Origin: Nitrospira sp. CG24E
GTDB taxonomy: Bacteria > Nitrospirota > Nitrospiria > Nitrospirales > Nitrospiraceae
Direction: 5' to 3'
DNA: 39,243 nucleotides
Assembly (NCBI GenBank): GCA_002869895.2
Contig: NEWP02000014.1
Coordinates: 187,020 to 226,262 of the forward strand
Shown here: piece after piece, positions 3,455 through 28,827 of the stretch
How positions within the stretch are numbered: position 1 is the first letter of the stretch
How the letters are laid out: each line of letters starts with the position of its first letter
Program-made: the position numbers and the translations under genes
The notes under the pieces: generated by a model
Databases searched by the model: none
The model's input: the letters and a program-made list of their open reading frames with translations, nothing else
What the model was told of the DNA's origin: nothing

Positions 3455-3517
3455 ATTCCCTGACCGCCTGATCCGGTGAACGGTATATGAGAGATTCTTC
3501 CCGGTTGTGGAGGGTGG

Positions 3518-4267: not shown

Positions 4268-4339
4268 ATGGTAGGGCTGAGTACGCAGCTGGACAAGGAA
4301 ATCTCCAGTTTAATCCAAACTGCTGAATGGGTTCGTTTA

Positions 4340-4463
4340 CGGGATGCTCAAAAAGGCTGTCAGCAAGGCCGCAGCCGATGAAAGCACCGGAGGCGTAGCC
4401 TTTGGCTACGTTGAGGATGCTTTCGAGGTGAGAACGAAGCTGGCGGACTTTTTCAGCATCCCG
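4340..4463 (-). repeat. ~124-bp terminal-inverted-repeat element, copy 1, abutting a stop codon
   Basis: The outer arms CGGGATGCT and AGCATCCCG pair perfectly and are followed inward by A-rich/T-rich continuations. The interior shares AGCAAGGCCGCA and GTGAGAACGAAGCTGGC with copy 2 (15742-15865) and, in diverged form, copy 3 (39111-39233). The element starts at the base directly after the TAG of the M50 gene at 4464. No ORF is inside. It looks like a MITE or REP-type element able to fold into a long hairpin. Confidence 0.85.
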
Positions 4464-5438: not shown

Positions 5439-5448
5439 AGTGCCGTCT

Positions 5449-6291
5449 TCAACGATCTTGCGCAAAGGGGTTGTGGTCGAGTTCTTCACGAACGGTCGTC
5501 GCTGGTCCGTGCCCCGGCAATAGAATACAATCGTGCGGTAATTTCATCAGGCGCTGCCGCACGGAATCCAGATGAGTGCTGTAGAACGTGTGGGGATTGG
5601 ACCGTCCAATCGATCCGGCAAAGAGGGTGTCGCCGACAAAACACACAGACTGCGACTCGGTATCGATCCGATAGCAGATACCGCCGGGCGTATGGCCCGG
5701 TGTCGTGAGGCAGCGAACGGTGAGTCCTCCTACCGGTATTGAACGCCCGTCGTTCGGAGCAGTAAGACGATCTTTCGAGGGTTTCCAATGCAGGAGGCTG
5801 ACATCATCAGTCCCCAAATAGACCGGAACCCGCCATCGTGCCAGGAGTTCTTGAATCCCCTCTGCGTGGTCCGCATGCCCATGTGTGAGACAGATACCTG
5901 TCAGCCGAATGCGATGAGATTCGAGCCAGGCGATCATGGCGGGAGCGTTGTATGCCGTGTCGATCAACAGGGCTTCCCCTCCGTCGTGCAGAATGTAGCC
6001 CTGCACTCCATAGCCGTTGATGGAGCCATGGATCGTTTCAACCCAGGTCGGCGTCTGTTGCGTCACCGGTTCCCATTTGTCGATTGCAACTTGCTCGAGC
6101 GGCGCAGATCGTAGCCCCAAGGCTTTCGCCAGTATCCGCACCTCGGCACGGCCCTGCGGTTGGCTTCCTCGTTCTAATGTTGCAATGTCTCCCTCGGACA
6201 GCCCCGTCGCATGAGCGATGTCGCTCACCGAGAGCCCCTGCCCCGTCCGTGCCTTCTTTAAGATGTCTGAAAAGTCGTCTTCAAGCGGCAT
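5449..6291 (-). CDS. XRE-type helix-turn-helix fused to a metallo-beta-lactamase-fold hydrolase
   Basis: About 280 residues in two parts. Residues 1-65 form a Cro/C1-type helix-turn-helix (LKKARTGQGLSVSDIAHATGLSEGDIATLERG). The rest is a glyoxalase-II-like metallo-beta-lactamase fold: THGHADH, then PGHTPGG, then FVGDTLFAGSIGR, then LPGHGPATT, giving all metal ligands of a two-metal site. GloB-like enzymes hydrolyse thioesters. A DNA-binding-like domain on such an enzyme is unusual; it could sense a metabolite, or be a degenerate protein-interaction domain. The ATG at 6291 is preferred over an in-frame TTG three codons upstream. It sits between the M16 pair and the M50 protease on the same strand, 36 bases after the former. 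Confidence 0.88.
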   Translation of the reverse strand: MPLEDDFSDILKKARTGQGLSVSDIAHATGLSEGDIATLERGSQPQGRAEVRILAKALGLRSAPLEQVAIDKWEPVTQQTPTWVETIHGSINGYGVQGYILHDGGEALLIDTAYNAPAMIAWLESHRIRLTGICLTHGHADHAEGIQELLARWRVPVYLGTDDVSLLHWKPSKDRLTAPNDGRSIPVGGLTVRCLTTPGHTPGGICYRIDTESQSVCFVGDTLFAGSIGRSNPHTFYSTHLDSVRQRLMKLPHDCILLPGHGPATTVREELDHNPFAQDR

Positions 6292-6327
6292 GTTCGTCAA
6301 TCACCAATGGTTATCGGGGCAAATGAA

Positions 6328-9419: not shown

Positions 9420-10066
9420 ATAAAAAGCTCCATTAATTCTTCCGGTCGTTCGATAAACCAGTCAGGACGGCAGGCCTGCATTTTCGCGCGATTTCCCATG
9501 CCGTACCCGACTGCACAGACGCGAATCCCGGCGTTATGTCCACCGTTGATGTCGTTGGTGCTGTCCCCGACGAGCACGGTCCGTTCTTTCGGTACGTTCA
9601 ATTGCTCCATCACATGTAACAACATGCCCGGTTCCGGTTTCAACCCAAACCCGTGATCGCCTCCAACGACGTACTGAAAATGATGCGCCCCCAGCCCCTG
9701 GAGAATCACGTTCGTGTACTCGATCGACTTGTTGGTGGCCACAGCCTTCCGCTTGTTTGCGAAATGATCAAGCATTTCTCCAATGCCGGGATAGAACGTG
9801 GTGCGATCGAGGCAATGGGTCAAGTACTGGCCCCTGAACGCCTTCACGGTGTCGTCGAAGGTGATATGGCTGCTCTCGCCGACCGATAAACGCAACAACT
9901 GTTTAATTCCATCCCCCACAAAGCCAAAGATTTCTTCGATTGGCCGCTGCGGCAGACCCAGCTCGGCCAACGTCAGGTTTACCGCTGCGGCAATGTCCCA
10001 TTTGGACTCGATAAGTGTCCCGTCCAGATCGAAGATCAACAGCTCAACGGAGGTCTTTCCCATCAT
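9416..10066 (-). CDS. gph: HAD hydrolase, phosphoglycolate phosphatase-like
   Basis: A 216-residue HAD-superfamily phosphatase. Motif I is FDLDGTL with the nucleophile aspartate at residue 13. Motif II/III lie in the core, and motif IV is GDSTNDINGGHNAG. The small helical cap and overall length match Gph, which clears 2-phosphoglycolate from DNA 3' ends or photorespiration-like oxygenation; other small phosphate monoesters are possible substrates. The start ATG at 10066 shares a base with the TAA of the upstream gene (TAATG), and a second ATG follows directly. Its stop overlaps the next start by 4 bases. Gene assignment is from family likeness, not proven substrate. Confidence 0.85.
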   Translation of the reverse strand: MMGKTSVELLIFDLDGTLIESKWDIAAAVNLTLAELGLPQRPIEEIFGFVGDGIKQLLRLSVGESSHITFDDTVKAFRGQYLTHCLDRTTFYPGIGEMLDHFANKRKAVATNKSIEYTNVILQGLGAHHFQYVVGGDHGFGLKPEPGMLLHVMEQLNVPKERTVLVGDSTNDINGGHNAGIRVCAVGYGMGNRAKMQACRPDWFIERPEELMELFI

Positions 10067-10623
10067 TACTTTGCCTTTCGTAACTCGTCCTGCAACGATC
10101 CGAGACGGTCTCGTTTCGCCTGGTCTGTTTCCTTCAGCCACGCTTCGCGCACGACGTTCACCATCCGCTTCTGTCCCACGTGAGGAGGAAACATCGGCTC
10201 CACGATCCTCCATCGATTCTTGACGGCTTTCACACGAAACCGGATCTCTTCTGTCTCGGCCCCCTGGACGAAGCCGGCGGTTTCCATGTACACGGAGCCG
10301 AGTACTTGAAAGGTGACAGGAATTACCACCTCCAGGCTATCGATCACTTCCCATTGACGATACTGCTCCGCCACGACAAAATCGCGCGTCACGACGATAT
10401 GGCCCCAGGTCGGCTCCTCATCCCAAGTCGTATAGGATGCAACCGATGAGACCGATAGGGCATCGAGCCGAGCTCCCTTATGATCGAGCGCCAGATATCG
10501 TTTCACCACCTCCGCAGGCGAGTGCTGGAGGGATCCGGTCTGCGCCGACGAAAGACTCGCCACGAACAGCCATCCTATCAGGGCTATGAAGACCGCGACT
10601 GTGGTTGGCAGGCGGCTGTTCAT
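10066..10623 (-). CDS. Exported protein of unknown function
   Basis: A 185-residue protein with a signal peptide (hydrophobic VAVFIALIGWLFVASL, likely cleavage after SSA-Q). The mature region resembles small NTF2-like or lipoprotein-type domains in its pattern: HSPAEVVKRYLALDHKGARL near the start suits an NTF2-like cone-shaped fold, followed by beta strands with conserved W and charged residues. No named family is recognised. The ATG at 10623 overlaps the pyk TGA by 4 bases (10620-10623), and the stop overlaps gph by one base, so it is part of the coupled pyk operon. Confidence 0.75.
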   Translation of the reverse strand: MNSRLPTTVAVFIALIGWLFVASLSSAQTGSLQHSPAEVVKRYLALDHKGARLDALSVSSVASYTTWDEEPTWGHIVVTRDFVVAEQYRQWEVIDSLEVVIPVTFQVLGSVYMETAGFVQGAETEEIRFRVKAVKNRWRIVEPMFPPHVGQKRMVNVVREAWLKETDQAKRDRLGSLQDELRKAK

Positions 10624-12080
10624 GACGGGATCCGGTGGAGTTTCATGGCATTGGTGCCGCCTAACTCTCCCGTTACGGCTCCGGATAAGAACACGACGCA
10701 ATCACTCGATTCGGCCAACATTTCCTCCACCAATCGATGTTCTACCGCAAGGACACGTTTGTCCGGATCCTGAACTCGGGCCATCATCCGAGGAAGCACA
10801 CCCCAGTAGAGCGCCATCCGTCGTTGAACGTGAGCGTGAGGGGTGAAGGCGACAATAGGGGCGACTGGTCGCTGTTTTGAGAGCAGACGTGCAGTCGAAC
10901 CGGACTCGCTGAATGTGGCGATCGCGGCGGCTTCTGTCGCGGCTGCCGCCGATGCAGCTGCCCCGCACATCGCCTCAGGAATCGAGCAGCATTCACGGCG
11001 AGTTGCATGTTCGACCGGGCCGACATGCAGGGGCACTGCTTCACCCTCTGCAACGCGAACGATGCGATCCATGACCTGCACCGATTCCACCGGATATTGC
11101 CCACGGGCGGTTTCCGCCGAGAGCATAACCGCATCGGTGCCGTCGAAAATCGCGTTGGCTACATCAGACGCTTCTGCCCTGGTCGGGCTGGGGTGCTGGG
11201 TCATCGACTCGAGCATTTGCGTGGCCGTAATGACCAGCCGGCGATGCCGGTTCGCCTGTGTAATGATCCGCTTCTGAAGGATCGGCACGACTTCCGGTCC
11301 CATCTCCACACCAAGATCTCCGCGCGCGATCATGACTCCGTCTGCTTCCTCCAGCAACGCATCTAATGCGGTGATTGCCTCGGCCCGTTCGATTTTTGCA
11401 ATGATCGGTTGGTCCCCCCCGCATTCCGCTACCAGACGCCGAGTTGCCTGCACATCTTCAGGCCCGCGCACAAAGGAGAGTGCCATATAGTCCACTGACT
11501 CTGCGACACCAAAGCGAATATCCTTCCGATCCTTTTCCGTGAGGGTCGGTACGCTCATCGTGGTGCCGGGGAGATTGATCCCCTTATGAGACAGGATCCG
11601 CCCACCGGTCTTGACCCTGCACTCGACGGCACCGCCACTTACCGCTGTCACCAGTAGTTCGATCAGTCCGTCGTCTACCAAGACTCTGGCTCCCGGTCGA
11701 AGGTCTTGCGCCAACTGTGGATAGGTCACTGGGATCTCCGTGAGGTTCGAAGGGGTCATAGTCCGGCCGCCGATCTGGCCTCCGGACCGAAGCATGCCCC
11801 CGACGAGCCGGATCCGTTGTTCCGCCGCCACCTCGACCCCTGCCCCTTCGAGAGCGCCTATCCGGATTCGAGGCCCCTGCAAGTCTTGCATAATCGCAAC
11901 CGGGCGATGCAGGCGTTCCGCAACGGAGCGGATCGAGGCAATCGCTGCGCGATGCGAGTCGTGAGTGCCATGGGAAAAATTAAGACGGGCGACGTCCATA
12001 CCGCTCTCGATCAGTCGTTCGAGTATCGCCGGTTCGGCGCTGGCTGGTCCGATCGTACAGACAATTTTGGCTTTTCGCAT
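10620..12080 (-). CDS. pyk: Pyruvate kinase
   Basis: A 486-residue pyruvate kinase, converting phosphoenolpyruvate and ADP to pyruvate and ATP. The N-terminal KIVCTIGPAS, ARLNFSHG, DLQGPRIRIG, IIAKIERAEA, GVMIARGDLGVEMG, VITATQMLESM and DAVMLSAETARGQYP segments are all present, giving the TIM-barrel active site and the metal ligands. The usual DLxGPKIR lysine is arginine here. The C-terminal allosteric domain is complete in length. The ATG at 12080 begins the family N-terminus MRKAKIV; an in-frame GTG 13 codons upstream has no family support. It heads a run of seven minus-strand genes, several with stop/start overlaps, which suggests one transcript. Confidence 0.95.
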   Translation of the reverse strand: MRKAKIVCTIGPASAEPAILERLIESGMDVARLNFSHGTHDSHRAAIASIRSVAERLHRPVAIMQDLQGPRIRIGALEGAGVEVAAEQRIRLVGGMLRSGGQIGGRTMTPSNLTEIPVTYPQLAQDLRPGARVLVDDGLIELLVTAVSGGAVECRVKTGGRILSHKGINLPGTTMSVPTLTEKDRKDIRFGVAESVDYMALSFVRGPEDVQATRRLVAECGGDQPIIAKIERAEAITALDALLEEADGVMIARGDLGVEMGPEVVPILQKRIITQANRHRRLVITATQMLESMTQHPSPTRAEASDVANAIFDGTDAVMLSAETARGQYPVESVQVMDRIVRVAEGEAVPLHVGPVEHATRRECCSIPEAMCGAAASAAAATEAAAIATFSESGSTARLLSKQRPVAPIVAFTPHAHVQRRMALYWGVLPRMMARVQDPDKRVLAVEHRLVEEMLAESSDCVVFLSGAVTGELGGTNAMKLHRIPS

Positions 12081-12233
12081 GAAGGAGGGGTCACCAGTGA
12101 ACAGGCTGTGGGCTGGCACAATCTATCCTGGACCACAGGGGCTCGCGCGTGTAGCGCCGATCGTGCGCTACATTCTAGCAAACAGGTCCTGGCGCCGCAA
12201 AGCATCTCTTCCATCCAGCTGATCCCTGCAACG

Positions 12234-12263
12234 TTGACCTGCGTCAAAATCGCATGCTACGGT
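12234..12263 (+). promoter_or_regulatory. Predicted sigma70-type promoter of the RNase-inhibitor pair
   Basis: TTGACC at 12234-12239 and TACGGT at 12258-12263 are separated by 18 bases. The -35 box lies inside a small palindrome, TTGAC-ctgc-GTCAA, that might be an operator. The RNase start at 12317 lies about 50 bases downstream. Confidence 0.4.
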
Positions 12264-12316
12264 CATTGTTCGAGGATGTGCCCTGGGATGTCGCACCACG
12301 AAGGATCTCGATTCCC

Positions 12317-12766
12317 ATGAGTCGGCGGCGGATCACCAGCATCCTGGTTCTCTGGGGTCTCTTTGCTTCGCTTCTCTTCGGGTTGCCGGCGGATGGTCTA
12401 TCCGAAACCTGGCTTGCCCAGGGGGCGGAGGCGTTGGGGTCAGTCTCTCCTGCCTTGACTACCAACCGATCGCTGACTACTCCACATATTCGGCATGAAC
12501 AGGCCGCCCCTCAAAAGGCACATGACCTCCTGGCACGCCTTCAAGCCCGGTATGGCAAACCCTTGCCAGGCTATGTCGGGGGGCGTGAGTTTCAGAATCG
12601 TGAGCGTCGCCTTCCCCCTGGCTACTATCGAGAGTACGATGTGAACCCTAAAATACGCGGCCGCTCGCGCGATGCGGAACGGATCGTCATCGAACAAGAC
12701 AGCGGCAGGGCCTATTATACCGGCGACCATTATCGAACCTTCATACCATTGAATGAGATACCATGA
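12317..12766 (+). CDS. Secreted barnase-like (N1/T1 family) ribonuclease
   Basis: A 149-residue protein. Residues 1-30 form a signal peptide (RRRITSILVLWGLFASLLFG). The C-terminal 60 residues carry the microbial guanyl-specific RNase signature: PPGYYREYDVNP with the catalytic base glutamate near 106, RGRSRDAERIV with arginines matching barnase Arg83 and Arg87 (about 118 and 122), and TGDHYRTF with the catalytic acid histidine near 138. Such enzymes cut RNA after guanine. The ATG at 12317 is used because the earlier one at 12254 lies before the likely promoter -10. The stop overlaps the inhibitor start by 4 bases (12763-12766). It could be a defence or competition toxin, or a nutritional RNase. 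Confidence 0.88.
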   Translation: MSRRRITSILVLWGLFASLLFGLPADGLSETWLAQGAEALGSVSPALTTNRSLTTPHIRHEQAAPQKAHDLLARLQARYGKPLPGYVGGREFQNRERRLPPGYYREYDVNPKIRGRSRDAERIVIEQDSGRAYYTGDHYRTFIPLNEIP

Positions 12767-13317
12767 CTCCGAAACACTTGCTGACATTGCCCGCCTACCT
12801 CCAATCGACAAAGGCCCCCTGGACATCATTGCTTACAGTCCCAGCTGGGAAGCCTGTCGAATCGTTGGTGCGCCCACCGGCTGGGTTCACGTTGAAGGTC
12901 ATTAAGGGCTGTCGCTGTAAGACACCGGCAAATCTATTTGCGGAGTTTGCGCAGGCCTTGGAGTTTCCCGACTACTTCGGCCACAACTGGGACGCCATGG
13001 AAGAATGCCTGGCCGATCTGGAATGGTTGCCGGCCAAGGGGTATGTCTTGTTGATCACCGATGCAGGAGATGTATTGCCTGACAACGAAGAGGAGTATGA
13101 AACCTTTCTTGAGATCTTGCGCGATGCGGGAGAGGCCTGGGGAAGTGGACAGGCAGGAATGGGCGCGCGACGAGCCACGCCCTTTCACGCGCTGTTTGCC
13201 GTATTGGAACAGGAAAAAGCCAAGCGGGCTCACTGGGGGATGAAAGAAGTCGATGCGGGACCGACTGGGGAGGCGAGTGGGCGGCAACGGTCTCCCAAAC
13301 GTAGACCGTCTCGTTGA
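12763..13317 (+). CDS. Barstar-family ribonuclease inhibitor
   Basis: A 184-residue cytosolic protein. The barstar core is at about residues 45-130: FAEFAQALEFPDYFGHNWDAMEECLADLEW matches the conserved helix-loop-helix that plugs the barnase active site, including the YFGHNWDA segment with the key aspartate. The family is usually about 90 residues, so both an N-terminal extension of about 40 residues and a basic C-terminal tail (QRSPKRRPSR) are extra. Coupling to the upstream RNase gene by a 4-base overlap fits immunity against the pre-secreted enzyme. Confidence 0.9.
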   Translation: MTPKHLLTLPAYLQSTKAPWTSLLTVPAGKPVESLVRPPAGFTLKVIKGCRCKTPANLFAEFAQALEFPDYFGHNWDAMEECLADLEWLPAKGYVLLITDAGDVLPDNEEEYETFLEILRDAGEAWGSGQAGMGARRATPFHALFAVLEQEKAKRAHWGMKEVDAGPTGEASGRQRSPKRRPSR

Positions 13318-13437
13318 TATCGATCTGCTCATTCAGCTAGGGTAGGGAGCCCTATCGAGGCAAGAGATTTCCTTTATCAGCGAGGGTCGAGTAAGCCAGC
13401 GGGGTTTTTCAGTATCCGCTCATGAAAGGAGTCAGCC

Positions 13438-13848
13438 ATGGGACTTATGGATCAATTGGGACAAGCAGCCGGTGGGATGATGGGCGGGCAGACGGGACAG
13501 AATCCTCTGCTGCAAGCGGTGATAGGTTTGCTCGGACAGAATAGTAGCGTAGGGGGATTGGCTGGCCTTGTCCAGGGATTCCAGAAGAATGGACTGGGCG
13601 ACATTGTCAATTCCTGGGTAGGCACTGGCGCGAATCTGCCCATCACGCCGGATCAGATCAAGCAGGGCCTCGGAAGCGATTTTTTGAGCCAATTGGCGGG
13701 TAAGGCCGGCGTCACGCCCGATGCCGCAAGCGCTCAGTTGTCCAGCTTGCTACCGGGCGTGGTCGATAAATTGACGCCGAGCGGAAAGATTGACGCAGGC
13801 GGTATCGACCAGTTGCTGAATATGTTTCAGGGGAAGATGGGGGCATAA
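13438..13848 (+). CDS. YidB-like (DUF937) protein
   Basis: A 136-residue glycine-rich protein matching the YidB/DUF937 family: MGLMDQLGQAAGGMMGG, a middle GLAGLVQGFQKNGLGDIVNSWVGTG segment, and the LPITPDQIKQGLGSDFLSQLAGKAG helical repeat, ending in the SGKIDAGGIDQLLNMF segment. Function in the family is not established. A strong AAAGGAG ribosome-binding site lies 6 bases before the ATG. The 120 bases upstream contain, around 13394-13424, a stretch resembling one end of the terminal-inverted-repeat element, possibly a remnant. Confidence 0.88.
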   Translation: MGLMDQLGQAAGGMMGGQTGQNPLLQAVIGLLGQNSSVGGLAGLVQGFQKNGLGDIVNSWVGTGANLPITPDQIKQGLGSDFLSQLAGKAGVTPDAASAQLSSLLPGVVDKLTPSGKIDAGGIDQLLNMFQGKMGA

Positions 13849-13881
13849 CTCTCTAGGGGCCGATAAGGAGATATGTCTGTT

Positions 13882-14121
13882 CTATAGGCGTATCTTCTCG
13901 GTCACCTGCAGTAAGCTTGTCCAGTGGAAGAGTTTAGAAGATAGTCCGGTCGCAGTTTCGGAGTAAGAGGCTGGGTGAATCGATGCCTGCCAGCGGGCCT
14001 CGACTTCATGGCGATGAACGACGCAAATGCCATGCGTCTCCCGCACATCTGTCATGGGCGGTTTCTCGCCCATCAGTGCGGTTTTCCCTTCTTGCCGGCA
14101 CCACGAACAGATAATCTTCAT
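13882..14121 (-). CDS. Small putative zinc-binding protein
   Basis: A 79-residue protein. The N-terminal half carries a CSWC pair, then ETHGICVVHRHEV, giving a C-x2-C ... C-x3-H pattern that could bind one zinc. The C-terminal half has no recognisable motif. Function unknown. It runs convergent to the YidB gene with a 33-base gap. A short hairpin (TTAACCG tttc CGGTTAA at 14133-14150) lies directly upstream of the start and could be an operator. Confidence 0.65.
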   Translation of the reverse strand: MKIICSWCRQEGKTALMGEKPPMTDVRETHGICVVHRHEVEARWQASIHPASYSETATGLSSKLFHWTSLLQVTEKIRL

Positions 14122-14344
14122 CGCCTGATCCCTTAACCGTTTCCGGTTAACTGAGTGGTACCGGCATCAAACGCAAGAGTCGAGCCTCATTCGATCGGTT
14201 ACATGCAATCGGCACATTTCCAATGGATTACGAAAAGTCCCTAGCTATAGAAAAGCCGGCAGGAGCAAAAAATGGTGTGGATTCTGCCTTTTCAGACATT
14301 TTTTGGCCCAGGCCGCCTGATCCACTTCATGGATTTCCCTATCC

Positions 14345-14373
14345 TTGACCAGAGCGCGACTGCATGGTACTGT
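14345..14373 (+). promoter_or_regulatory. Predicted sigma70-type promoter of hemL, leaderless transcript likely
   Basis: TTGACC at 14345-14350 and TACTGT at 14368-14373 are separated by 17 bases. The -10 box ends 11 bases before the ATG at 14385, so the transcript would have at most a few leader bases; there is no ribosome-binding site. Confidence 0.55.
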
Positions 14374-14384
14374 GCGCCCCCATT

Positions 14385-15668
14385 ATGAAAACCACTCGCT
14401 CCGCCAAGCTTTTTACAGAGGCGCAACAGCTCATTCCCGGAGGAGTGAATAGTCCGGTGCGCGCTTTTCGTTCCGTCGGAGGCCAGCCCAGATTTATCGA
14501 GCGGGCCAAAGGCGCCCGTCTCTACGATGTCGATGGGAACAGCTATCTTGACTACGTACTATCATGGGGTCCAATGATTTTGGGCCATGCAGCCCCTTCG
14601 GTGACCAGTGCGATCAAAAAGGCTGCGGCCAACGGAACTAGTTACGGCGCACCGACCGAGTTGGAAGTGATACTCGCTCGCATGATCCACCAGGCCATGC
14701 CATCGATGGAGAAAGTCCGGCTTGTGAGTTCCGGCACCGAGGCGGTTATGAGCGCGATTCGTGTCGCGCGGGGCTTTACGAAACGAGATACGATTCTGAA
14801 GTTTGAAGGGTGCTATCACGGTCACAGCGATTATCTGCTGGCGAAGGCCGGGTCCGGTTTGGCCACGTTGGGGATACCTGATTCGCTCGGAGTTCCCGCT
14901 GATTTTGCGAAACATACTTTGACCGTTCCGTACAACGATATCCGGGCGGTTCAACAGATCGTCAAAGAACATCGAGATCGTTTGGCCTGCGTGATTCTGG
15001 AGCCGATCGCTGCGAATATGGGTGTTGTGCCTCCCGCACCGGAATTCCTTGCGTCACTCCGCAGACTCACGAAAGAGAACGACATCCTCCTGATCTTCGA
15101 CGAGGTCATTTCCGGCTTTCGTGTCGCCTACGGCGGCGCCCAAACGCTCTACGGGATTACTCCGGATCTGACGGTGCTGGGGAAAATCATCGGCGGCGGA
15201 TTGCCGGTCGGCGCTTACGGTGGGCGTAAGGAAATTATGAATCTGATCGCGCCCGTGGGGCCGGTCTATCAGGCTGGAACCCTGTCAGGAAATCCATTAG
15301 CCGTGTCTGCCGGCATCGAAACGCTCAAGCAGCTCAAAGTCCGCGGGGTCTACAAGAAGCTGGAAGAAAAATCGGTAGCCCTGGCCAAGGGAATAGGCGA
15401 TGCGGCCAAGAAGGCCGGTGTGCCGCTCACGCAAACCAGAATCGGTTCAATGCTGGGAGCCTTCTTTACTTCAGGCCCGGTAGTGGATTGGGATACGTCC
15501 AAACTGTCGGACACGAAACGATACGGACTATTCTTTCACCAGATGTTGGAACAGGGAGTGTATTTGGCCCCCTCTCAATTCGAAGCCGCCTTCCTCTCCA
15601 CCGTCCATTCAGACCGCGATATCGACTACACGATCAAAGCCACCCATTCCGCCTTCAAAACGCTCTAG
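14385..15668 (+). CDS. hemL: Glutamate-1-semialdehyde 2,1-aminomutase
   Basis: A 427-residue PLP enzyme that converts glutamate-1-semialdehyde to 5-aminolevulinate, the first committed precursor of haem in the C5 pathway. Diagnostic segments are IPGGVNSPVRAFRSVGG at the start, LVSSGTEAVMSAIRVARG, FEGCYHGHSD, ILEPIAANMGVVPP, IFDEVISGFRVAYGGAQ, the PLP-lysine segment LGKIIGGGLPVGAYGG and GTLSGNP. Length is typical. The ATG at 14385 is chosen over one at 14364 because the latter lies inside the predicted promoter. There is no Shine-Dalgarno sequence. It appears monocistronic. Confidence 0.95.
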   Translation: MKTTRSAKLFTEAQQLIPGGVNSPVRAFRSVGGQPRFIERAKGARLYDVDGNSYLDYVLSWGPMILGHAAPSVTSAIKKAAANGTSYGAPTELEVILARMIHQAMPSMEKVRLVSSGTEAVMSAIRVARGFTKRDTILKFEGCYHGHSDYLLAKAGSGLATLGIPDSLGVPADFAKHTLTVPYNDIRAVQQIVKEHRDRLACVILEPIAANMGVVPPAPEFLASLRRLTKENDILLIFDEVISGFRVAYGGAQTLYGITPDLTVLGKIIGGGLPVGAYGGRKEIMNLIAPVGPVYQAGTLSGNPLAVSAGIETLKQLKVRGVYKKLEEKSVALAKGIGDAAKKAGVPLTQTRIGSMLGAFFTSGPVVDWDTSKLSDTKRYGLFFHQMLEQGVYLAPSQFEAAFLSTVHSDRDIDYTIKATHSAFKTL

Positions 15669-17455: not shown

Positions 17456-17926
17456 ATGGACAACAACGCCGGGCCTGAAGGGTTGATTGCTCAGCTACTG
17501 GAGGCTGGGTTAGCCGGAAAGCCTGGTATAGGCGGAAAGCCATGGCGCCTGGGGCTATGCCAGCATGTACGCATGTGGGTGAGGCATGGATATAGGTGTG
17601 GCTATTGCGATGAGGATCTTTTATCAGATTTGCCCAGGATGATGAGTGCGCAACTCGACCATCTGTTGCCGAAGAAGGAGTATCCAGATCTTCGTGATGC
17701 CGAGGACAACTGGGTTCTTGCGTGCTTTCGCTGCAATCAGCTCAAGCGTACTTTTAACCCGTGGAAGTCGCTCCCGGGCTCGGTTGGCTCGCCAACACGT
17801 GAAAATATCGCAAGTTACCGGCACGCACTCATCGAAGCATCCTGGAAGAACCTTGAACAGCGGAGAGATGAGCAACGCGCGATGCACCTACGCGTCACCA
17901 GCATCTTGGCAATGGGTAATGGTTAG
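17456..17926 (+). CDS. HNH endonuclease family protein
   Basis: A 156-residue protein with a single HNH domain: a CGYC pair near residue 47, then AQLDHLLPKKEY with the HNH aspartate-histidine pair, ...EDNWVLACFRCNQLKRTFNP containing the asparagine and the second cysteine pair. These form the zinc-stabilised beta-beta-alpha metal finger. A GGAGG ribosome-binding site lies 8 bases upstream. HNH proteins of this size occur in phage, restriction and antiphage contexts; no partner gene is visible here. It sits in the accessory region with a damaged toxin gene upstream. Confidence 0.85.
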   Translation: MDNNAGPEGLIAQLLEAGLAGKPGIGGKPWRLGLCQHVRMWVRHGYRCGYCDEDLLSDLPRMMSAQLDHLLPKKEYPDLRDAEDNWVLACFRCNQLKRTFNPWKSLPGSVGSPTRENIASYRHALIEASWKNLEQRRDEQRAMHLRVTSILAMGNG

Positions 17927-21221: not shown

Positions 21222-21623
21222 TTAGCGACTCCTTGCAGGGGAAAATTTTAGCATGGTCACAATCGCCTTGTCGAGGCGCTTGACCTTGCCGTTCCCGTCG
21301 ACTGTTGCCAGTCTTGCCGATCCTTCGACGACCACACGGCCACGGGTTTTTTCTTTCACCACATGGGTAAACGTTAAGGAGGCGGATCGCAAATCCTTGA
21401 CGGAGGTCTCGACCAACAAGGTCTCGCCATACCGAGCGGGCGAGCTATAATCCACTTCTGCATGCACCACAACGAATACCGTACCTTCTTTCATGAGCCC
21501 GGCCACCGACAGCCCTCGCTCTTCCAGATACTGGGTCCGTGCCCGTTCGAAATACTTGAGGTAGTTCGCGTAGTACACCATCCCGCCGCAATCCGTGTCT
21601 TCGTAGTAGATCTGAATTTCCAT
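21222..21623 (-). CDS. ybgC: YbgC-like acyl-CoA thioesterase (hotdog fold)
   Basis: A 133-residue hotdog-fold thioesterase of the YbgC/4-hydroxybenzoyl-CoA thioesterase family. The catalytic-aspartate segment YYEDTDCGGMVYYANYLKYFERART at residues 6-30 is nearly identical to the family consensus, and the second half carries SLTFTHVV and ARLATVD strands. In proteobacteria YbgC acts with the Tol-Pal system; no tol gene is seen here. A 12-bp inverted repeat lies just upstream of the start. Confidence 0.92.
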   Translation of the reverse strand: MEIQIYYEDTDCGGMVYYANYLKYFERARTQYLEERGLSVAGLMKEGTVFVVVHAEVDYSSPARYGETLLVETSVKDLRSASLTFTHVVKEKTRGRVVVEGSARLATVDGNGKVKRLDKAIVTMLKFSPARSR

Positions 21624-21849: not shown

Positions 21850-23106
21850 CTAGACGTTCAGTATCGGAAACTTCGGCAACGATGTTTCGCTGACGCCGGA
21901 CAATTTGACGACCACTTCGTAGAGCTGCTGCACCCGCTCGGCTTTGACCGGTTCGAACCCGTGGCCAAGAACTGCATGGTTGGCTGCGTCGAGCAGCGGT
22001 TTCATCGTCGGCCATTCGCGTAAGAAGACTTGGCCCATCTGGTCACCCAATCCGGCCAGAGTGCGAAACTGCGCCTGAAAGGACAGCTTGTACTTGCCGT
22101 CCAGATCTTCCAACCAACAGGATCGGCAGGTTTCCCGTAGCGCCTGCGGCAACTGTTCCGGCAGTACATCCCAGGTCTTGATCTGGTGCTGCTTGAACAA
22201 TTGTCGTTGGGCGAAGGCTTCGAGCGCGCGAACGAGCGAGACCATCGCGGCTTCCGAATCCTGCGAGCCATGCAGTCGTCGACCGGCATGGGCCAGCAGG
22301 TCGGGAGCCTGCATCTCTTTTACTGGGGCAGGATCGAGGACAAGTTTTTCCAAGAACCCCGCGTTGGCTTTAATCGACGGCAGCAGCGAGGTGAGTCCTG
22401 GCGGTCCGCCCCACAGGGAGGCCATCTCGAAGGCCTTCACGGCACCTTTCAGTTTCTCCCAGGCTTGACGATAATGAAATCGTTCCCAGAGGTCGTAGCC
22501 ATCGGCCAGATCAGCGAAAGCCCGATAGAGCGGTTTCTGCCCTCCGCTCACCCTTGCTTCGACATCGCGAAACAGCTTAGCCGCTGCGGCAAACAATCTC
22601 CGGTTGAACAGTTCACAGCCCTCGCGGCGTGAGACGGATGCCGCCTCATCCCAAGGATTCCCCTGCGTCCAGATGAACGGCTGCCCGGCAAGATCGATCC
22701 TGTCGTCCTCCTGTCCTTCGTGCGCCGGGACGAGCGACACGATTCGCGAACTGAGAGATCGTGTCGTCAACGTCAGCGCGCCTGCCATGGCCGGCGTCGC
22801 TCCAGTCACATCGACGATGAGCTCGCCTGGCTGCACCTCCCATGTATGCAACATGGCCGGAAGTGTTTTGGCAAGCATCTGGTAGCAACTAACAAAATCG
22901 CCGATCTCTGCCAGCACCACCCAATCCCACCGTCTGGGCATGTGCTCGATCTTCGGCTGGACTTCGGATTCCACAAGCGATTTCGCCCCTTCCGGCAACA
23001 CGAAGCAGAGCGAATCCGGCTGCAAACGATTAATCGAGTAGACTGCCGCCGAGGTATGGTCGGTGAGGGCGATCACTAGGGCTTTGACTGGTTGGTCCTG
23101 CGCCAT
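21850..23106 (-). CDS. CARF-type Cas02710-family protein, stand-alone
   Basis: A 418-residue protein. Residues 8-130 form a Rossmann-like CARF domain: KALVIALTDHTSAAVYSINRLQPD, a middle IGDFVSCYQML segment and the ligand loop VDVTGATPAMAGALTLTTRSL, where many CARF proteins bind cyclic oligoadenylate. The rest is helical; the segment HAGRRLHGSQDSEAAMVSLVRALEAFAQRQLF resembles the HEPN-containing part of the CRISPR-associated Cas02710 (TIGR02710) family. The normal HEPN motif RNxxxxxH seems changed: the equivalent reads AANHAVLGHG, with alanine where arginine is expected. The start at 23106 is chosen by likeness; there is no clear ribosome-binding site. No cas gene or CRISPR array is in the window. 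Confidence 0.75.
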   Translation of the reverse strand: MAQDQPVKALVIALTDHTSAAVYSINRLQPDSLCFVLPEGAKSLVESEVQPKIEHMPRRWDWVVLAEIGDFVSCYQMLAKTLPAMLHTWEVQPGELIVDVTGATPAMAGALTLTTRSLSSRIVSLVPAHEGQEDDRIDLAGQPFIWTQGNPWDEAASVSRREGCELFNRRLFAAAAKLFRDVEARVSGGQKPLYRAFADLADGYDLWERFHYRQAWEKLKGAVKAFEMASLWGGPPGLTSLLPSIKANAGFLEKLVLDPAPVKEMQAPDLLAHAGRRLHGSQDSEAAMVSLVRALEAFAQRQLFKQHQIKTWDVLPEQLPQALRETCRSCWLEDLDGKYKLSFQAQFRTLAGLGDQMGQVFLREWPTMKPLLDAANHAVLGHGFEPVKAERVQQLYEVVVKLSGVSETSLPKFPILNV

Positions 23107-23331: not shown

Positions 23332-23766
23332 ATGATTTGGTGGTATTGGATGCTCCTCGGCATTGTGCTGCTGGGCGTCGAAATGGTCACGCCAGGGGGT
23401 TTCTACATTCTTTTTTTTGGGCTGGCGGCACTGATTATTGGAGGTCTGAGCGGCCTGGGGTTTGCCCAGGCGGAGTGGCTCCAGTGGCTGTTGTTTTCCG
23501 GACTCTCGATTCTCTCACTCCTGGTTTTTCGAGGGCCGTTATTGGTTTGGATTAAAATCAAGGATAAGGAGATGCCGATCGTGGACTCGATGGTGGGTGA
23601 AAGCGCAATTCTGCTCGAAGACCTGGTGCCAGGCGGTACGGGCAAGGCGGAACTGCACGGCACCACATGGACCGTGCATAATGCCGGGCAGGCTCCCATG
23701 AAAAAGAACCAACGGTGCAAGGTTGAACGGGTTGAGGGGCTAGCCCTATGGATTGCAGCAGAATGA
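23332..23766 (+). CDS. NfeD-family membrane protein
   Basis: A 144-residue protein. Residues 1-65 contain two or three transmembrane helices (WWYWMLLGIVLLGVEMVTPGGFYILFFG and WLQWLLFSGLSILSLLVF). Residues 80-144 form the cytosolic OB-fold of the short NfeD type (VGESAILLEDLVPGGTGKAELHGTTWTVH). Family members work with SPFH/stomatin proteins in membrane-quality control, and such a gene follows 43 bases downstream. Confidence 0.9.
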   Translation: MIWWYWMLLGIVLLGVEMVTPGGFYILFFGLAALIIGGLSGLGFAQAEWLQWLLFSGLSILSLLVFRGPLLVWIKIKDKEMPIVDSMVGESAILLEDLVPGGTGKAELHGTTWTVHNAGQAPMKKNQRCKVERVEGLALWIAAE

Positions 23767-23809
23767 GTGAGGACCCTATGGAAAGTGAACGGCTATGGAA
23801 GAGGTAACC

Positions 23810-24748
23810 ATGAGCGGCGGACTTTTTGTGGTGTTGTTGCTGGCCTTGCTGGTGCTGGTGGTGATTGCCAAGACCGCGGTGGTCGTACCCCAGCAAAGCG
23901 CCTACGTGGTCGAGCGGCTCGGCAAGTATGCAGCCACGTTGGATGCGGGGTTTCATATTCTGGTCCCCTTCATCGACCGCATCCGCTACAAACATTCGCT
24001 CAAAGAAACGGCCATCGACATTCCCGAACAGGTCTGTATCACGCGGGATAATGTGCAGGTGTCGGTGGACGGGATCTTGTATCTCAAGGTCTTGAACCCC
24101 CAGCGCGCCTCGTACGGCATCAGCGACTATAATTTTGCCCTGATTCAACTTGGACAGACCACGTTACGGAGCGAGATCGGCAAGATCGAACTCGATCGGA
24201 CGTTCGAAGAACGGACCAACATCAATATCCAGGTAGTGAACGAACTCGACAAAGCCTCGGATCCTTGGGGAGTCAAGGTTTTGCGCTATGAGATCAAGAA
24301 CATCACCCCGCCGAAGGGCGTGCTGGACGCGATGGAAAAGCAGATGCGGGCGGAACGGGAAAAACGCGCGGTGATTCTTACGTCCGAGGGTGAGCGAGAT
24401 GCGGCTATCAATCAGGCCGAAGGGGAGAAACAACAGGTCATCAAAGCCTCCGAAGCCAAGAAACAGCAGCAGATCAATGAGGCGGAGGGAGCGGCCGCAG
24501 CGATCCTCGCCATTGCCCAGGCCACTGCGCAGGGCTTGCACAAGGTTGCGGAGACCATCCAAATGCCGGGAGGTCAGGAAGCGGTCCAGTTGCGGGTAGC
24601 AGAGCAGTACATCACGAAGTTTGGCGAGTTGGCCAAAACAACCAACACCCTCATCCTGCCGGCGACGGTTTCCGATGTCGGCTCCATGATTGCCTTGGCC
24701 ATGAACGCGATCCGGCAGACCTCGGTTGCTCCTCTTCAAAAGTCTTAG
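23810..24748 (+). CDS. qmcA: SPFH/band-7 protein, QmcA-like
   Basis: A 312-residue protein with one N-terminal transmembrane segment (LFVVLLLALLVLVVIAKTAVVV), then an SPFH domain (QQSAYVVERLGKYAATLDAGFHILVPFIDRIRYKHSLKETAIDIPEQVCITRDNVQVSVDGILYLKV) and a long coiled-coil region (EKQMRAEREKRAVILTSEGERDAAINQAEGEKQQVIKASEAKKQQQINEAEG, shown here only as landmarks). The ATG at 23810 is chosen for its GGAAGAGG ribosome-binding site. It forms an operon with the upstream NfeD gene, the usual pairing of these families at membrane microdomains. Confidence 0.9.
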   Translation: MSGGLFVVLLLALLVLVVIAKTAVVVPQQSAYVVERLGKYAATLDAGFHILVPFIDRIRYKHSLKETAIDIPEQVCITRDNVQVSVDGILYLKVLNPQRASYGISDYNFALIQLGQTTLRSEIGKIELDRTFEERTNINIQVVNELDKASDPWGVKVLRYEIKNITPPKGVLDAMEKQMRAEREKRAVILTSEGERDAAINQAEGEKQQVIKASEAKKQQQINEAEGAAAAILAIAQATAQGLHKVAETIQMPGGQEAVQLRVAEQYITKFGELAKTTNTLILPATVSDVGSMIALAMNAIRQTSVAPLQKS

Positions 24749-24762: not shown

Positions 24763-24791
24763 TTGACAGGTGACAGCAGGTTGCCTAGAAT
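24763..24791 (+). promoter_or_regulatory. Strong sigma70-type promoter of gmhA, leaderless
   Basis: TTGACA at 24763-24768 and TAGAAT at 24786-24791 are separated by 17 bases, near consensus. The -10 box ends only 8 bases before the ATG at 24800, so transcription should start at or within 2 bases of the start codon. No ribosome-binding site is present. Confidence 0.65.
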
Positions 24792-24799
24792 CGCTTCCC

Positions 24800-25378
24800 A
24801 TGAAAGAGCACGTTCTCAATGTGTTTGCCGAAAGCGCAGCCGTCAAACAACATTTCGCGCGTGAGCATGCCGATCGTATTGTGCAGGTCGCGAGGCTGAT
24901 TGCTGAGGCCTTTCGCAACGGACATAAAGTACTGCTCTTCGGCAACGGAGGCAGTGCCACGGATGCGGCCCATCTCGCAGCCGAGTTCGTCGGCCGCTAC
25001 AAGCGTGAGCGAGCCCCACTTCCGGCCCTCGCCCTCGCCACCGACATCGCCGCCATTACTTGCATCGCCAACGACTATGGGTTTGAAGAACTCTTTGCTC
25101 GACAGGTCCAAGCCCATGGCCAGAAAGGCGATGTCGCCATAGCCATCAGCACCAGCGGCAATTCACCCAACGTGCTGAAAGGCGTGGAGGCCGCGCAAGC
25201 CTGTGGCCTCACCACCATCGGCTGGACCGGTGGGACCGGCGGAAAACTCGCCGGCTTGGTGGAATATCCGTTCGTCGTGCCTTCAACGGTTACGGCCCGC
25301 ATTCAAGAAAGCCATATCACACTCGGCCATGTCCTGTGTGAGCTCATTGAGGAACAGCTCCTTGCCAAAGCCTCCTGA
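24800..25378 (+). CDS. gmhA: Sedoheptulose-7-phosphate isomerase
   Basis: A 192-residue SIS-domain protein of the GmhA family, which makes D-glycero-D-manno-heptose-7-phosphate for lipopolysaccharide inner core. Visible segments are VLLFGNGGSATDAAHLAAEFVGRY with the active-site glutamate, AISTSGNSPNVLKGVEAA, and the C-terminal IQESHITLGHVLCELIE with the catalytic histidine. The ATG at 24800 suits the promoter spacing. The DHS-like gene downstream overlaps its 3' end by 17 bases if it starts at 25362. Confidence 0.92.
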   Translation: MKEHVLNVFAESAAVKQHFAREHADRIVQVARLIAEAFRNGHKVLLFGNGGSATDAAHLAAEFVGRYKRERAPLPALALATDIAAITCIANDYGFEELFARQVQAHGQKGDVAIAISTSGNSPNVLKGVEAAQACGLTTIGWTGGTGGKLAGLVEYPFVVPSTVTARIQESHITLGHVLCELIEEQLLAKAS

Positions 25379-26354
25379 CCGGCAGCGGCCCCCTGTCACG
25401 ACTCCAAGCCTGATCCCGCCGATCAATGTGACGGATCTCACGACCTATCCGCTCAAAAAACGGTACAGCAAGGTCCGCGTGTCCGACTTTGCGAAGCCCT
25501 GGCGCCGCGGAGATAGCTTCAGCCAATTCTATCGCTCGCTGCCGGATATCCTCGGCGTGAAAACGCTGCGCGCCGTGGCCAAAGCCATCGCGAAGGCCCA
25601 TCGCAAAGGCCGACCGGTCATTGTCGGCATCGGCGCACATGTCATCAAAGTCGGATTAAGCCCGATTCTTGTGGACCTCATGCAACAAGGGATCCTCTCC
25701 GCTGTGGCCATGAATGGGGCAGGCATTATTCATGATTTCGAATTGGCCCTCATGGGGCACACGTCTGAGGAAGTCGACGCGGAGATCGACGAGGGACGCT
25801 TCGGGATGGCGGAAGAAACCGGCCGCATGTTGAACGAGGCGATCATCCGTGGGGCCGATGATCGCGAGGGGCTCGGCGAATCCATCGGTCACTATATCAA
25901 CAGGCGTCAGGGGCAGTTCCCCCATCGCGAGACGAGCATCCTGGCGACTGGAGCGAAGCTCGGTATTCCTGTGACCGTACATGTCGCCATCGGGACCGAC
26001 ATTATCCATATGCATCCTGCCGCGGACGGAGCTGCCATTGGAGCGACGTCGCTGTTGGATTTCCGGCGGCTTGCGGCTGTCGTATCGGAGATGGAGGGGG
26101 GCGTGTATCTCAACCTTGGCTCTGCTGTCGTATTGCCGGAGGTCTTCCTCAAAACAGTGTCGTTAGGGCGCAACCTGGGTCACGATTTGACCAACATTAC
26201 GACCGTCGACATGGACTTCTTGGCCCATTACCGTCCCCTCACCAATGTCGTGCGTCGGCCGACCCAGAAGGGCGGGAAGGGTTACTCCCTGATCGGCCAC
26301 CACGAAATCATGGTGCCGCTGCTCGCAGCCTCGGTCTACGAAGAATTGGGGTGA
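25362..26354 (+). CDS. Conserved protein, possibly deoxyhypusine-synthase-like, function unknown
   Basis: About 330 residues starting with PKPPDRQRPPVTTPSLIPPINVTDL. A glycine-rich Rossmann-like beginning (RPVIVGIGAHVIKVGLSPILVDLMQQGILSAVAMNGAGIIHDFELALMGHTSEE), then AEETGRMLNEAI, then VTVHVAIGTDIIHMHPAADGAAIG and LNLGSAVVLPEVFLK, is conserved-looking and complete. The overall layout recalls deoxyhypusine-synthase-type NAD enzymes, but the catalytic lysine segment of that family is not recognised. TTG at 25362 is preceded by AGGA; the ATG at 25329 lies deeper inside gmhA and is the alternative. It shares the gmhA transcript, with 10 bases to the next gene. Confidence 0.7.
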   Translation: MPKPPDRQRPPVTTPSLIPPINVTDLTTYPLKKRYSKVRVSDFAKPWRRGDSFSQFYRSLPDILGVKTLRAVAKAIAKAHRKGRPVIVGIGAHVIKVGLSPILVDLMQQGILSAVAMNGAGIIHDFELALMGHTSEEVDAEIDEGRFGMAEETGRMLNEAIIRGADDREGLGESIGHYINRRQGQFPHRETSILATGAKLGIPVTVHVAIGTDIIHMHPAADGAAIGATSLLDFRRLAAVVSEMEGGVYLNLGSAVVLPEVFLKTVSLGRNLGHDLTNITTVDMDFLAHYRPLTNVVRRPTQKGGKGYSLIGHHEIMVPLLAASVYEELG

Positions 26355-26364: not shown

Positions 26365-28827
26365 ATGTCTCTAACGCAATCTCCTCCAGTGACCTCGCAG
26401 CATCTAGCCCAGGTGTGGAGCGGACTCAATGACCGCTATTTTTCAGGCCTGCTGTCTCCGATCGATCTCGTCTGGAGCCATCGACTGACCTCCTCAGTCG
26501 GCATGTTCGTGAGCCGTCGAGGGCCTCGGCCACGGCGGAACCAGGAGGGGACTCGCCTTCCGACCAAGCGCGAAATTCGCCTCTCCCTTCCCTTGCTTCA
26601 GCAGGTCGTCCAAGCGAGCGAGTATGGCGAACAGGAAATCATGAATACGCTGGCGCACGAAATGATTCATCAATGGCAATACGATATCCTGAAGCGGCGG
26701 CCAAACCATGGAGCGAGCTTTCTCCGAAAGATGACCGAGATGAATCGAGACGGCGCTCTCGCAATCACCATCTACCATTCCCTACAGAAGGAAGTCCTGG
26801 CTCTCACACAATTCGCCTGGCGTTGTCGGCAATGCGGCCGAGTATACCGACGCCAGCGACGAACGATTGAACCACGTCGCCACCATTGCGGTATCTGTCG
26901 AGGATTGTTCGGCGGCGACACCTTGTATGTTCCCCTGGAACGACTCGACCACGTGCAACGGTACAGCGGGGCGGACGGCCATGCGCCGCGCCTGGAACGG
27001 CTTGGCGGCGCCAATTGGGCCAAGACCACGGCACGTGTGAAGAAGGACATCGAGGAAATGGCTCACGAGCTGGTCGATCTATACGCCAACCGCGAGCTCG
27101 TGACACGTCATGCCTACGGATTCGACAGCACGATGTACCACGAATTCGAAGCGGCCTTCGAGTACGAAGAAACAGACGATCAACTCAAAGCGATCCAAGA
27201 CATTACGCACGACATGGAGTCCAGTAAACCGATGGACCGATTGGTCTGTGGCGACGTCGGGTACGGAAAAACGGAAGTGGCAATGCGCGCAGCCTTCAAG
27301 GCCGTGGAAGCCAATCGCCAAGTCGCGGTGCTCGTCCCTACAACCCTGTTGGCCCACCAACACTACGACAACTTCTCCGAACGGTTTGCGCCGTTCCCCG
27401 CTCGCGTGGCTCTGCTTTCACGATTCCAATCGCCGAAGGAAGCTAAAGCCATTCTCAAAGACGTGGCATCCGGCGCCGTCGATGTGCTGATCGGTACGCA
27501 TCGGCTCATCCAAAAGGATGTCGTATTCCGCGACCTGGGGATTGTGATTATCGACGAAGAACAGTGGTTCGGCGTCAAACATAAAGAACGATTGAAACAG
27601 CTCCGCACCCAAGTCGATGTCTTGACGCTGACAGCCACTCCGATTCCTCGGACCTTACAGATGGCCATGGCGAGTGTGCGGGATCTCTCGATCATCGAAA
27701 CCCCTCCGGCCGGCCGCCTCTCCATTCGCACGCAGGTCGTCAGATCGAACGACAGGCTCATCCGAGAGGCGATGTTGCGCGAACTGGGGCGTGGAGGACA
27801 GATCTACTTCGTCCACAACCGGGTCGAAACGATGGAAAAGACGGGAGCCTGGCTCCAGCAACTGGTGCCTGAAGCGCGCATCGTAATGGCCCATGGGCAG
27901 ATGAACGCCAAACCGCTCGAAGCCGTAATGCTGAAGTTCTTTCGCCGTGAAGCAGACGTGCTGATCGCCTCGGCCATTATTCAATCGGGCATCGACGTCC
28001 CCCATGCCAATACGATCTTCGTCAATCGCGCCGACATGTTCGGCCTCGCGCAGTTGTACCAGTTACGCGGGCGGGTAGGGAGAAGCGGCGACCAGGCCTA
28101 CGCCTATTTCCTGGTCCCGAATGAGGGACGGTTAAGTGAAGATGCGCAGAAGCGCCTCACCGCCATTCAGCAATTCACCGAGCTAGGGGCCGGTTTCCGT
28201 ATCGCAGCGGCTGATATGGAAATTCGAGGCGCCGGCAATCTCCTCGGTAAACAGCAGTCGGGGCATATCGCGGCCATTGGACTTGATCTGTACATGCAGA
28301 TGGTGGAGCAGGCCGTTCAGCGTCTTAGGGGCCAGGTGGTGGAAGAAGAGCCGGACCCGACCCTTCGGCTCAACGTCTCTGCCTTTATTCCCGATGAATA
28401 TGTCGCCGATCCACATCAGCGGCTCTCTTGTTATAAGCGACTCTCCTCCTGCACCCAAGTCGGAGACCTAGCCTTACTCCACGGCGAAATTCAGGATCGC
28501 TATGGGTTGGCTCCGGACTCCGTCGAGCGGCTGTTCGAAGTGATGCAGGTCCGACTCCAGGCCAAGGCCTTGCGCTTGATCTCGATCGAGCTCAAAACCC
28601 ATTCTGTCGTCGTCACACTCGACGCCAAGAGCCGGGTTTCAAGCCAGGCGATTCACCGGACGATGGACCGGTACAAGAAGCGGATGTGTTTCCTGTCTCC
28701 GCTGTCGTTCGAGCTCCAGATGCCGCATCAGGACTGGCCTTCCATCTTTCGAGAACTCACCGCAACCTTGCAAAGCCTCGGAGGCTGTGATACCAACACA
28801 ACAATAGTTCCACCACCATCTCGCTAA
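26365..28827 (+). CDS. SprT-like metalloprotease fused to the C-terminal half of Mfd
   Basis: One uninterrupted frame of 820 residues with two parts. Residues 1-182 are a SprT-like domain: NTLAHEMIHQWQYDIL with HEMIH at 98-102, then a zinc ribbon with C154, C157, C175 and C178. From residue 183 (GGDTLYVPLERLDHVQRY) the sequence is transcription-repair coupling factor: the last strands of the RNA-polymerase-interaction domain, Walker A GDVGYGKT (296-303), DEEQ (397-400), TLTATPIPRTL (421-431), QLRGRVGRS (566-574) and the C-terminal TRCF domain to about 805. The UvrB-like first half of Mfd (roughly 500 residues) and most of the RNAP-interaction domain are absent. DEEQ is followed by W where Mfd has R, and IIESG reads IIQSG. 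Only 10 bases separate it from the upstream gene. A natural fusion, or a deletion joining two neighbour genes. Confidence 0.88.
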   Translation: MSLTQSPPVTSQHLAQVWSGLNDRYFSGLLSPIDLVWSHRLTSSVGMFVSRRGPRPRRNQEGTRLPTKREIRLSLPLLQQVVQASEYGEQEIMNTLAHEMIHQWQYDILKRRPNHGASFLRKMTEMNRDGALAITIYHSLQKEVLALTQFAWRCRQCGRVYRRQRRTIEPRRHHCGICRGLFGGDTLYVPLERLDHVQRYSGADGHAPRLERLGGANWAKTTARVKKDIEEMAHELVDLYANRELVTRHAYGFDSTMYHEFEAAFEYEETDDQLKAIQDITHDMESSKPMDRLVCGDVGYGKTEVAMRAAFKAVEANRQVAVLVPTTLLAHQHYDNFSERFAPFPARVALLSRFQSPKEAKAILKDVASGAVDVLIGTHRLIQKDVVFRDLGIVIIDEEQWFGVKHKERLKQLRTQVDVLTLTATPIPRTLQMAMASVRDLSIIETPPAGRLSIRTQVVRSNDRLIREAMLRELGRGGQIYFVHNRVETMEKTGAWLQQLVPEARIVMAHGQMNAKPLEAVMLKFFRREADVLIASAIIQSGIDVPHANTIFVNRADMFGLAQLYQLRGRVGRSGDQAYAYFLVPNEGRLSEDAQKRLTAIQQFTELGAGFRIAAADMEIRGAGNLLGKQQSGHIAAIGLDLYMQMVEQAVQRLRGQVVEEEPDPTLRLNVSAFIPDEYVADPHQRLSCYKRLSSCTQVGDLALLHGEIQDRYGLAPDSVERLFEVMQVRLQAKALRLISIELKTHSVVVTLDAKSRVSSQAIHRTMDRYKKRMCFLSPLSFELQMPHQDWPSIFRELTATLQSLGGCDTNTTIVPPPSR

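Follow-up and report, generated by a model that had tools for sequence, protein, structure and literature searches.

A Csm6-family CARF-6H-HEPN protein without its cOA-binding lysine and catalytic HEPN arginine is a core gene of the Nitrospirales

Proteins of the Csm6 type are known for defence, in which they act as toxic enzymes triggered by a signal. Among them, the closest described counterpart of the protein reported here is Csm6 of Thermus thermophilus (TtCsm6; PDB 5fsh, 8jh1), a member of the TIGR02710/PF09670 group in which a CARF domain, a 6H helical domain and a HEPN domain follow one another. PMC10897365 reports that the RNase of TtCsm6 is abolished by R415A, N416A or H422A and names K137 as one of the two main cA4-binding residues; TtCsm6 residue numbers follow that report and are offset by three from the chain index. 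A second precedent is found in PMC3710099, namely inactive HEPN domains that occur with MNT nucleotidyltransferases, as fusions or as pairs, and that serve as binding or regulatory modules after "domestication." The Nitrospira protein described below resembles these in retaining a HEPN domain without catalytic residues and differs in that the MNT-linked domains have a toxin-antitoxin ancestry and no CARF domain.

The window, i.e., the whole stretch of DNA analyzed, comprises 39,243 nucleotides of Nitrospira sp. CG24E (contig NEWP02000014.1, positions 187,020 to 226,262). Its minus strand encodes at 21850..23106 (ATG at 23106, stop codon ending at 21850) a protein of 418 residues, P0001, which an earlier note had taken for a CARF/Cas02710-like protein. 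This identity was borne out by profile and fold matches, which mark P0001 as a degenerate Csm6/TIGR02710 relative. Profile search with NCBIfam TIGR02710 gave 118.4 bits, above the curated cut-off of 83.9, and the Pfam models PF09670 (Csm6 HEPN; 68 bits, cut-off 27, residues 268-403) and PF22205 (Csm6 6H; 42.5 bits, cut-off 27.6, residues 159-221) matched as well. The PADLOC model PDLC01812 (CARF1--CARF_HEPN) spanned the protein end to end with 771 bits over 417 of the 418 positions. The AlphaFold model of P0001, built from a 62-row alignment, had a mean pLDDT of 93.7 and a pTM of 0.86, and its best solved structural match was TtCsm6 over the full length (Foldseek E 1.5e-13). Superposition with VIA-align covered 388 residues with a Z of 21.3 and an rmsd of 7.6, which is large and suggests that the modeled domains are arranged differently from those of TtCsm6. 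The Rossmann-like CARF domain was assigned to residues 1-150 (22657..23106, minus strand) from the model and its fold matches to the CARF domains of Csm6, Can2, and Card1 (Z 14 to 15 for the last two, VIA-align). It is followed on the same strand by the 6H domain (residues 151-265; 22312..22656), whose limits were chosen from the model helices around the PF22205 match, and by the HEPN domain (residues 266-418; 21853..22311), which holds the PF09670 match. Full-length profile and CARF-6H-HEPN fold both place P0001 in the Csm6/TIGR02710 family, with the domain order and overall fold of TtCsm6.

The residues on which TtCsm6 depends are only partly preserved. Profile alignment of the family to TtCsm6 placed R415, N416, and H422 opposite A375, N376, and H382, and K137 opposite P105. 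The HEPN motif reads ANHAVLGHG (residues 375-383; 21958..21984, minus strand) with A375 in the place of the catalytic arginine, confirming what had been claimed from the letters ANHAVLGH. Because R415, N416, and H422 align to A375, N376, and H382, the arginine is truly gone rather than displaced, and a shifted arginine was ruled out by the alignment together with every row from the order. P0001 keeps the equivalents of H422 and of E332, the latter paired with E296. The claim of a CARF-type ligand loop fared less evenly: the stretch VDVTGATPAMAG is present, but it is not an ordinary ligand loop. Alignment column counts showed that residues 99-111 (DVTGATPAMAGAL; 22774..22812, minus strand) carry GATP where relatives carry GGTK, one glycine and the lysine of the relatives' VDYTGGTK having been lost. 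P0001 thus has neither the HEPN R-X4-6-H motif nor the CARF GGTK with its cyclic oligoadenylate (cOA)-binding lysine that characterize the Csm6 family. With Ala for R415, Pro for K137, no type III locus and the status of an order core gene, it departs from TtCsm6. It is predicted not to be an RNase of the usual kind, as had been proposed from the missing arginine.

These site losses extend over the whole order. Sites were counted in a 112-row alignment of 88 rows from the order (68 from the window's family and 20 from families f2 and f3) and 24 others (3 from family f21, 11 CRISPR-type, and 10 divergent). "CRISPR-type" is our label for the clade holding L077, L078, and L080; of its 11 members, genomic context is known for the copy of genome G102, which lies ∼16 kb from Csm1 on one contig. 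The HEPN arginine (position 375) was found in 0/88 order rows vs. 24/24 others, and the CARF lysine (position 105) in 0/88 vs. 22/22 readable others; 7 of the 10 divergent rows have no letters at 15-17 and two have none at 99-105, their N-termini having been cut by the Met-start trimming rule. A regular expression for the HEPN motif missed 6 of 81 rows (L176, L214, L168, L161, L162, and one of two L160 pieces) and was not used as a count; L161 stands outside the 112-row site counts and its motifs were read by eye. H382 was retained in 68/68 window-family rows, in which E296 is likewise invariant, and in 13/20 f2/f3 rows. The seven rows without it (L111, L115, L118, L119, L120, L122, and L125) form a single clade (SH-aLRT 100), and this loss came after that of the arginine.

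Owing to the invariance of H382 and E296 in the window's family, some HEPN pocket chemistry could survive. It was considered whether P0001 might still be an RNase or a nucleotide-modifying enzyme with changed chemistry, in which H382 would act with K369, D373, R276, or R293. Such an enzyme would be in keeping with H382 in 68/68 window-family rows and with R276, R293, Q300, K369, D373, and R391, all invariant in 88/88 order rows. Against it, H382 is gone from 7/20 f2/f3 orthologues; R276, R293, and Q300 are fixed in order and CRISPR-type rows alike; and K369, D373, and R391 occur also in the f21 outgroup, where the arginine is still there. Since the six residues are conserved in arginine-bearing relatives too, they are no replacement for the arginine, and a changed-chemistry enzyme appears improbable. 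Most of the residues that are fixed in the order and vary among CRISPR-type rows belong to the 6H and HEPN domains; as K369, D373, and R391 among them are already present in f21, a binding surface may predate the arginine loss.

The CARF domain gave a mixed picture. D99, T104, and M107 are nearly invariant in the 88 order rows, so that ligand binding by the pocket may persist. One reading is that the CARF domain senses another nucleotide-type ligand and a non-catalytic HEPN domain relays the signal via RNA or protein binding, so that P0001 would be a regulator, as the earlier note had proposed, though not of cOA. A CARF fold that is predicted to be intact with high confidence (mean pLDDT as above; Z about 15 to the CARF domain of Can2) and the three conserved residues speak for it. 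Orthologues differ from one another in the beta-1 loop and at position 102, which would not be expected of a shared ligand site, and CARF is the least conserved part with the highest dN/dS. Weighed together, these observations leave such a regulator rather unlikely.

Purifying selection on the gene was evident. Nei-Gojobori dN/dS between the window and 16 genus-mates was 0.064-0.133, with high dS in several pairs; by part, it was 0.095-0.174 for CARF, 0.033-0.108 for 6H, and 0.046-0.12 for HEPN, and the neighboring YbgC and SPFH genes gave 0.085-0.159 (nine pairs) and 0 to 0.042 (eight pairs), respectively. In the 68 window-family rows, 63 sites are invariant: 13/150 in CARF, 22/115 in 6H, and 28/153 in HEPN, the last two being the most conserved parts. 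A variable signal receiver together with a conserved 6H/HEPN part fits a protein that needs no cOA and still holds something. The possibility raised in the earlier note that the gene is a decaying remnant accords with the loss of two catalytic signatures and is contradicted by the selection result, by the 63 invariant residues in 68 orthologues and by uninterrupted full-length frames; dN/dS together with the presence of the gene in nearly all related genomes ruled it out, and we give it almost no credence.

The protein had also been described as a lone one, whereas it proved to be nearly universal in its order. Counted as matches at E <= 0.001, orthologues were found in 159/175 genomes of the window's family (110/114 high-quality genomes, 22/22 genera), mostly one per genome, and in 43/48 genomes of the sister family f2 (30/33 high-quality, 10/10 genera); weak matches in some genomes, e.g., G100 and G102 (E ∼1e-29 to 1e-30), may be the CRISPR-type rather than the core copy. 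The full-length matches listed in the 175 genomes were uninterrupted frames, and one partial match contained a stop (G141). When named genomes were searched with an alignment of 10 rows, 98 relatives were recovered, of which 80 were kept; all carried Nitrospirota labels except one "uncultured Nitrosospira" (L178). Named carriers include Nitrospira moscoviensis, N. lenta MAGs, Nitrospira sp. CG24A-C, and Nitrospirales NPIRA MAGs. The gene is thus an order-wide core gene of the Nitrospirales, in which both sites were lost together. It is not strictly essential since it is missing from some good genomes and has been lost from G133, a 1.7-Mb genome where a deletion spans the CARF gene and all of ybgC but a 24-residue tail (L248, G133:C23, 8195-8266).

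The surroundings of the gene are conserved as well. Downstream on the same strand lies a YbgC/FadM-type acyl-CoA thioesterase gene (21222..21623, minus strand), whose product scored above the YbgC/FadM subfamily cut-off and below the cut-off of the tol-pal ybgC equivalog. Divergent from the CARF gene is a GmhA-like SIS-domain isomerase (24770..25378, plus strand), and an NfeD and SPFH (Band 7) pair stands between the two (23332..24748, plus strand), an arrangement seen in part of the window's family only. In a tblastn survey of 61 loci (41 of the window's family, including the window, and 20 of f2/f3), a YbgC-like match was found within 4 kb in 56/61, downstream on the same strand and frequently at a distance of 4 to 30 bases, and a divergent GmhA within 4 kb in 48/61, both in either family; the NfeD-SPFH pair was found in 24/61. 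Matches to a further neighbor (25400-26354), whose query began out of frame, were set aside. Among the named loci, YbgC was matched in 68/80 within the flanks examined. That two families of the order have this locus in common speaks for vertical inheritance, and the conserved neighborhood may reflect only slow rearrangement. In 14/61 loci, the CARF gene and ybgC are separated by a gene for a 23S rRNA intervening-sequence protein (PF05635, checked on the L037 copy at 8629-8967); this gap in the window seemingly contains no intact PF05635 copy.

Phylogenetic analysis of 43 rows (IQ-TREE, LG+C20; supports given as UFBoot/SH-aLRT) recovered the order as one clade (100/100), joined next by the Manganitrophaceae MAG L161 (99/96) and then by three f21 genomes, and the order, L161, and f21 stood apart from the CRISPR-type clade (100/100). 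The f21 proteins (L144, L143, and L145) retain SIGGS or a near form, VDYTGGTK and RN.S.LAHG (SRNNSILAHG). L161 retains SVGGD, SGGTK, and the arginine (ARERSILGHG), the A of LAHG being already G. TIGR02710 scores drop from 206.9 (L144) through 150 (L161) to 116.9 (L108) and 118.4 (window). The f21 and Manganitrophaceae CARF-HEPN proteins, as sister lineages, are similar to P0001 in standing alone outside CRISPR loci and differ from it in their intact GGTK and HEPN arginine; the f21 copies are found in a housekeeping locus (rho/prfA/murA/hisG), with gene names assigned by ORF reading. In f21, Cas10 was above the cut-off in 4/5 genomes with the gene vs. 0/5 without (Fisher p 0.048, n = 10), a link that is merely suggestive because n is 10 and the gene-less genomes are less complete (70-95%). 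The window's family, f1, showed no Cas10 link (9/159 with the gene vs. 0/16 without, p 1.0). Two proteins from genomes assigned to different families, L046 (G009, f1) and L124 (G434, f3), grouped at the base of the order (100/100) and have the stretch LDAAHRSPLGHG in common, which raises a question of taxonomy or transfer.

The absence of a neighboring CRISPR locus, as previously claimed, held for the window: no CRISPR-like direct repeats were found in it, and none of the 10 other window ORFs run against the PADLOC models gave a match to a cas gene. It had been suggested that the protein might sense a cyclic oligonucleotide from a CRISPR locus elsewhere or from a CBASS-like system. The genome was searched for type III and synthase genes, and Csm1 (TIGR02578), the Cas10 palm (PF22335), and SMODS (PF18144) were all without a match in the window's genome. 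By these models, it has neither the Cas10, in the genome or in a nearby type III locus, expected of a Csm6-family effector nor the CD-NTase expected of CBASS. Across the window's family, Csm1 was above the cut-off in 5/175 genomes, the Cas10 palm in 9/175 (5/48 in f2), and SMODS in 15/175; in the window's genus, no Cas10 palm exceeded the cut-off and one genus-mate fell below it. A Cas1 match was obtained in the window's genome; it is part of what looks like a complete type I-G system (cas3g, cas8g, cas7g, csb2, and cas4g/cas1g). Type I-G systems are not known to make cOA. This system lies at L252 (G000:C62) 3260-15654, where Cas4g and Cas1g are fused and the array, of at least 20 repeats, runs to the contig end. 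A CRISPR locus elsewhere in the genome therefore exists, and sensing of cOA in trans is weakened as the CARF signature is degraded, the locus is of type I-G without Cas10, and neither Cas10 nor SMODS was found. A plain CRISPR effector acting in trans is also made less likely by the absence of Cas10 from its own genome and its rarity in the family.

Defence genes are not expected to evolve slowly under purifying selection. The slow evolution of this gene consequently bears on whether P0001 is still antiviral, as a cOA decoy or buffer, a dominant-negative partner of an active Csm6, or a guard protein. The ancestry of the family is antiviral, and in at least one window-family genome (G098), the core copy (L071) is accompanied by Csm1 (L031) and by a CRISPR-type copy whose sites are intact (L080). 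Nevertheless, Cas10 is absent from nearly all carriers, the cOA-binding lysine is gone in 88/88 rows and viral contigs, scanned for close relatives, yielded none; a continuing antiviral role is thus very doubtful, and the same scan speaks against a phage origin of the gene.

The reading that we favor, with somewhat better than even confidence, is that P0001 descends from a stand-alone Csm6-type effector, no longer acts as a cOA-triggered RNase and is retained in the Nitrospirales core with a new role, probably as a binding or scaffold protein. Its origin would be a stand-alone, chromosomal, vertically inherited CARF-6H-HEPN effector working in trans with type III CRISPR. The order's ancestor would have lost the CARF cOA signature and the catalytic HEPN arginine; with type III lost, the sites would have decayed and the protein been retained, strong purifying selection keeping it as a core gene beside ybgC. 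Judging from the substituted residues, both cOA binding and RNase activity are probably lost. The product would be a folded, probably dimeric protein, whose 6H/HEPN surface (R276, R293, Q300, K369, D373, and R391) may hold an RNA or protein partner. YbgC is known as a neighbor only, and any functional link to it is conjectural. That a CRISPR ancillary effector was domesticated in this way into a non-defence core gene with a housekeeping binding role, possibly with YbgC, has in our estimate about an even chance.

The protein cluster is already catalogued in PADLOC. Four further members were tested, namely two f2 proteins, an f21 protein, and the Manganitrophaceae protein, and PDLC01812 was the top-scoring model for each. 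This model, which stands in a defence library without a description, makes no distinction between members whose sites are intact (f21, Manganitrophaceae) and those that have lost them. Its source is presumably Makarova 2020. An earlier mention of the protein there is possible; in the literature searched, no paper on this Nitrospira protein was found. Automated defence annotation will accordingly score a probably non-defence gene as CRISPR signaling in nearly every Nitrospira genome. An order-wide orthologue without both signatures contrasts with the toxic enzymes for which the Csm6 type is known, and the series from f21 (intact, alongside type III) through the Manganitrophaceae MAG (intact) to the Nitrospirales (lost, core) may show a defence effector becoming a cell component. 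If this holds, P0001 would be a double pseudo-Csm6, deprived of signal reception and of catalysis, across a bacterial order that includes nitrite oxidizers and, as we take the CG24 genomes to represent, comammox bacteria.

Two other features of the window were noted. An ORF of 820 amino acids at 26365-28827 (plus strand) has a SprT-like domain (residues 17-138) followed by a C-terminal Mfd half (DEAD 270-432, TRCF 669-761). In the nearest relative (L253, G147) and in three more genus-mates (L254, L255, and L257), ∼3.3 to 3.5 kb separate the two parts; either a deletion private to this genome fused them and took away the N-terminal Mfd half, or the assembly is at fault. At 17456-17926 (plus strand), a small HNH protein is encoded, whose matches to defence models of the PtuB type were weak (best E 5.6e-8).
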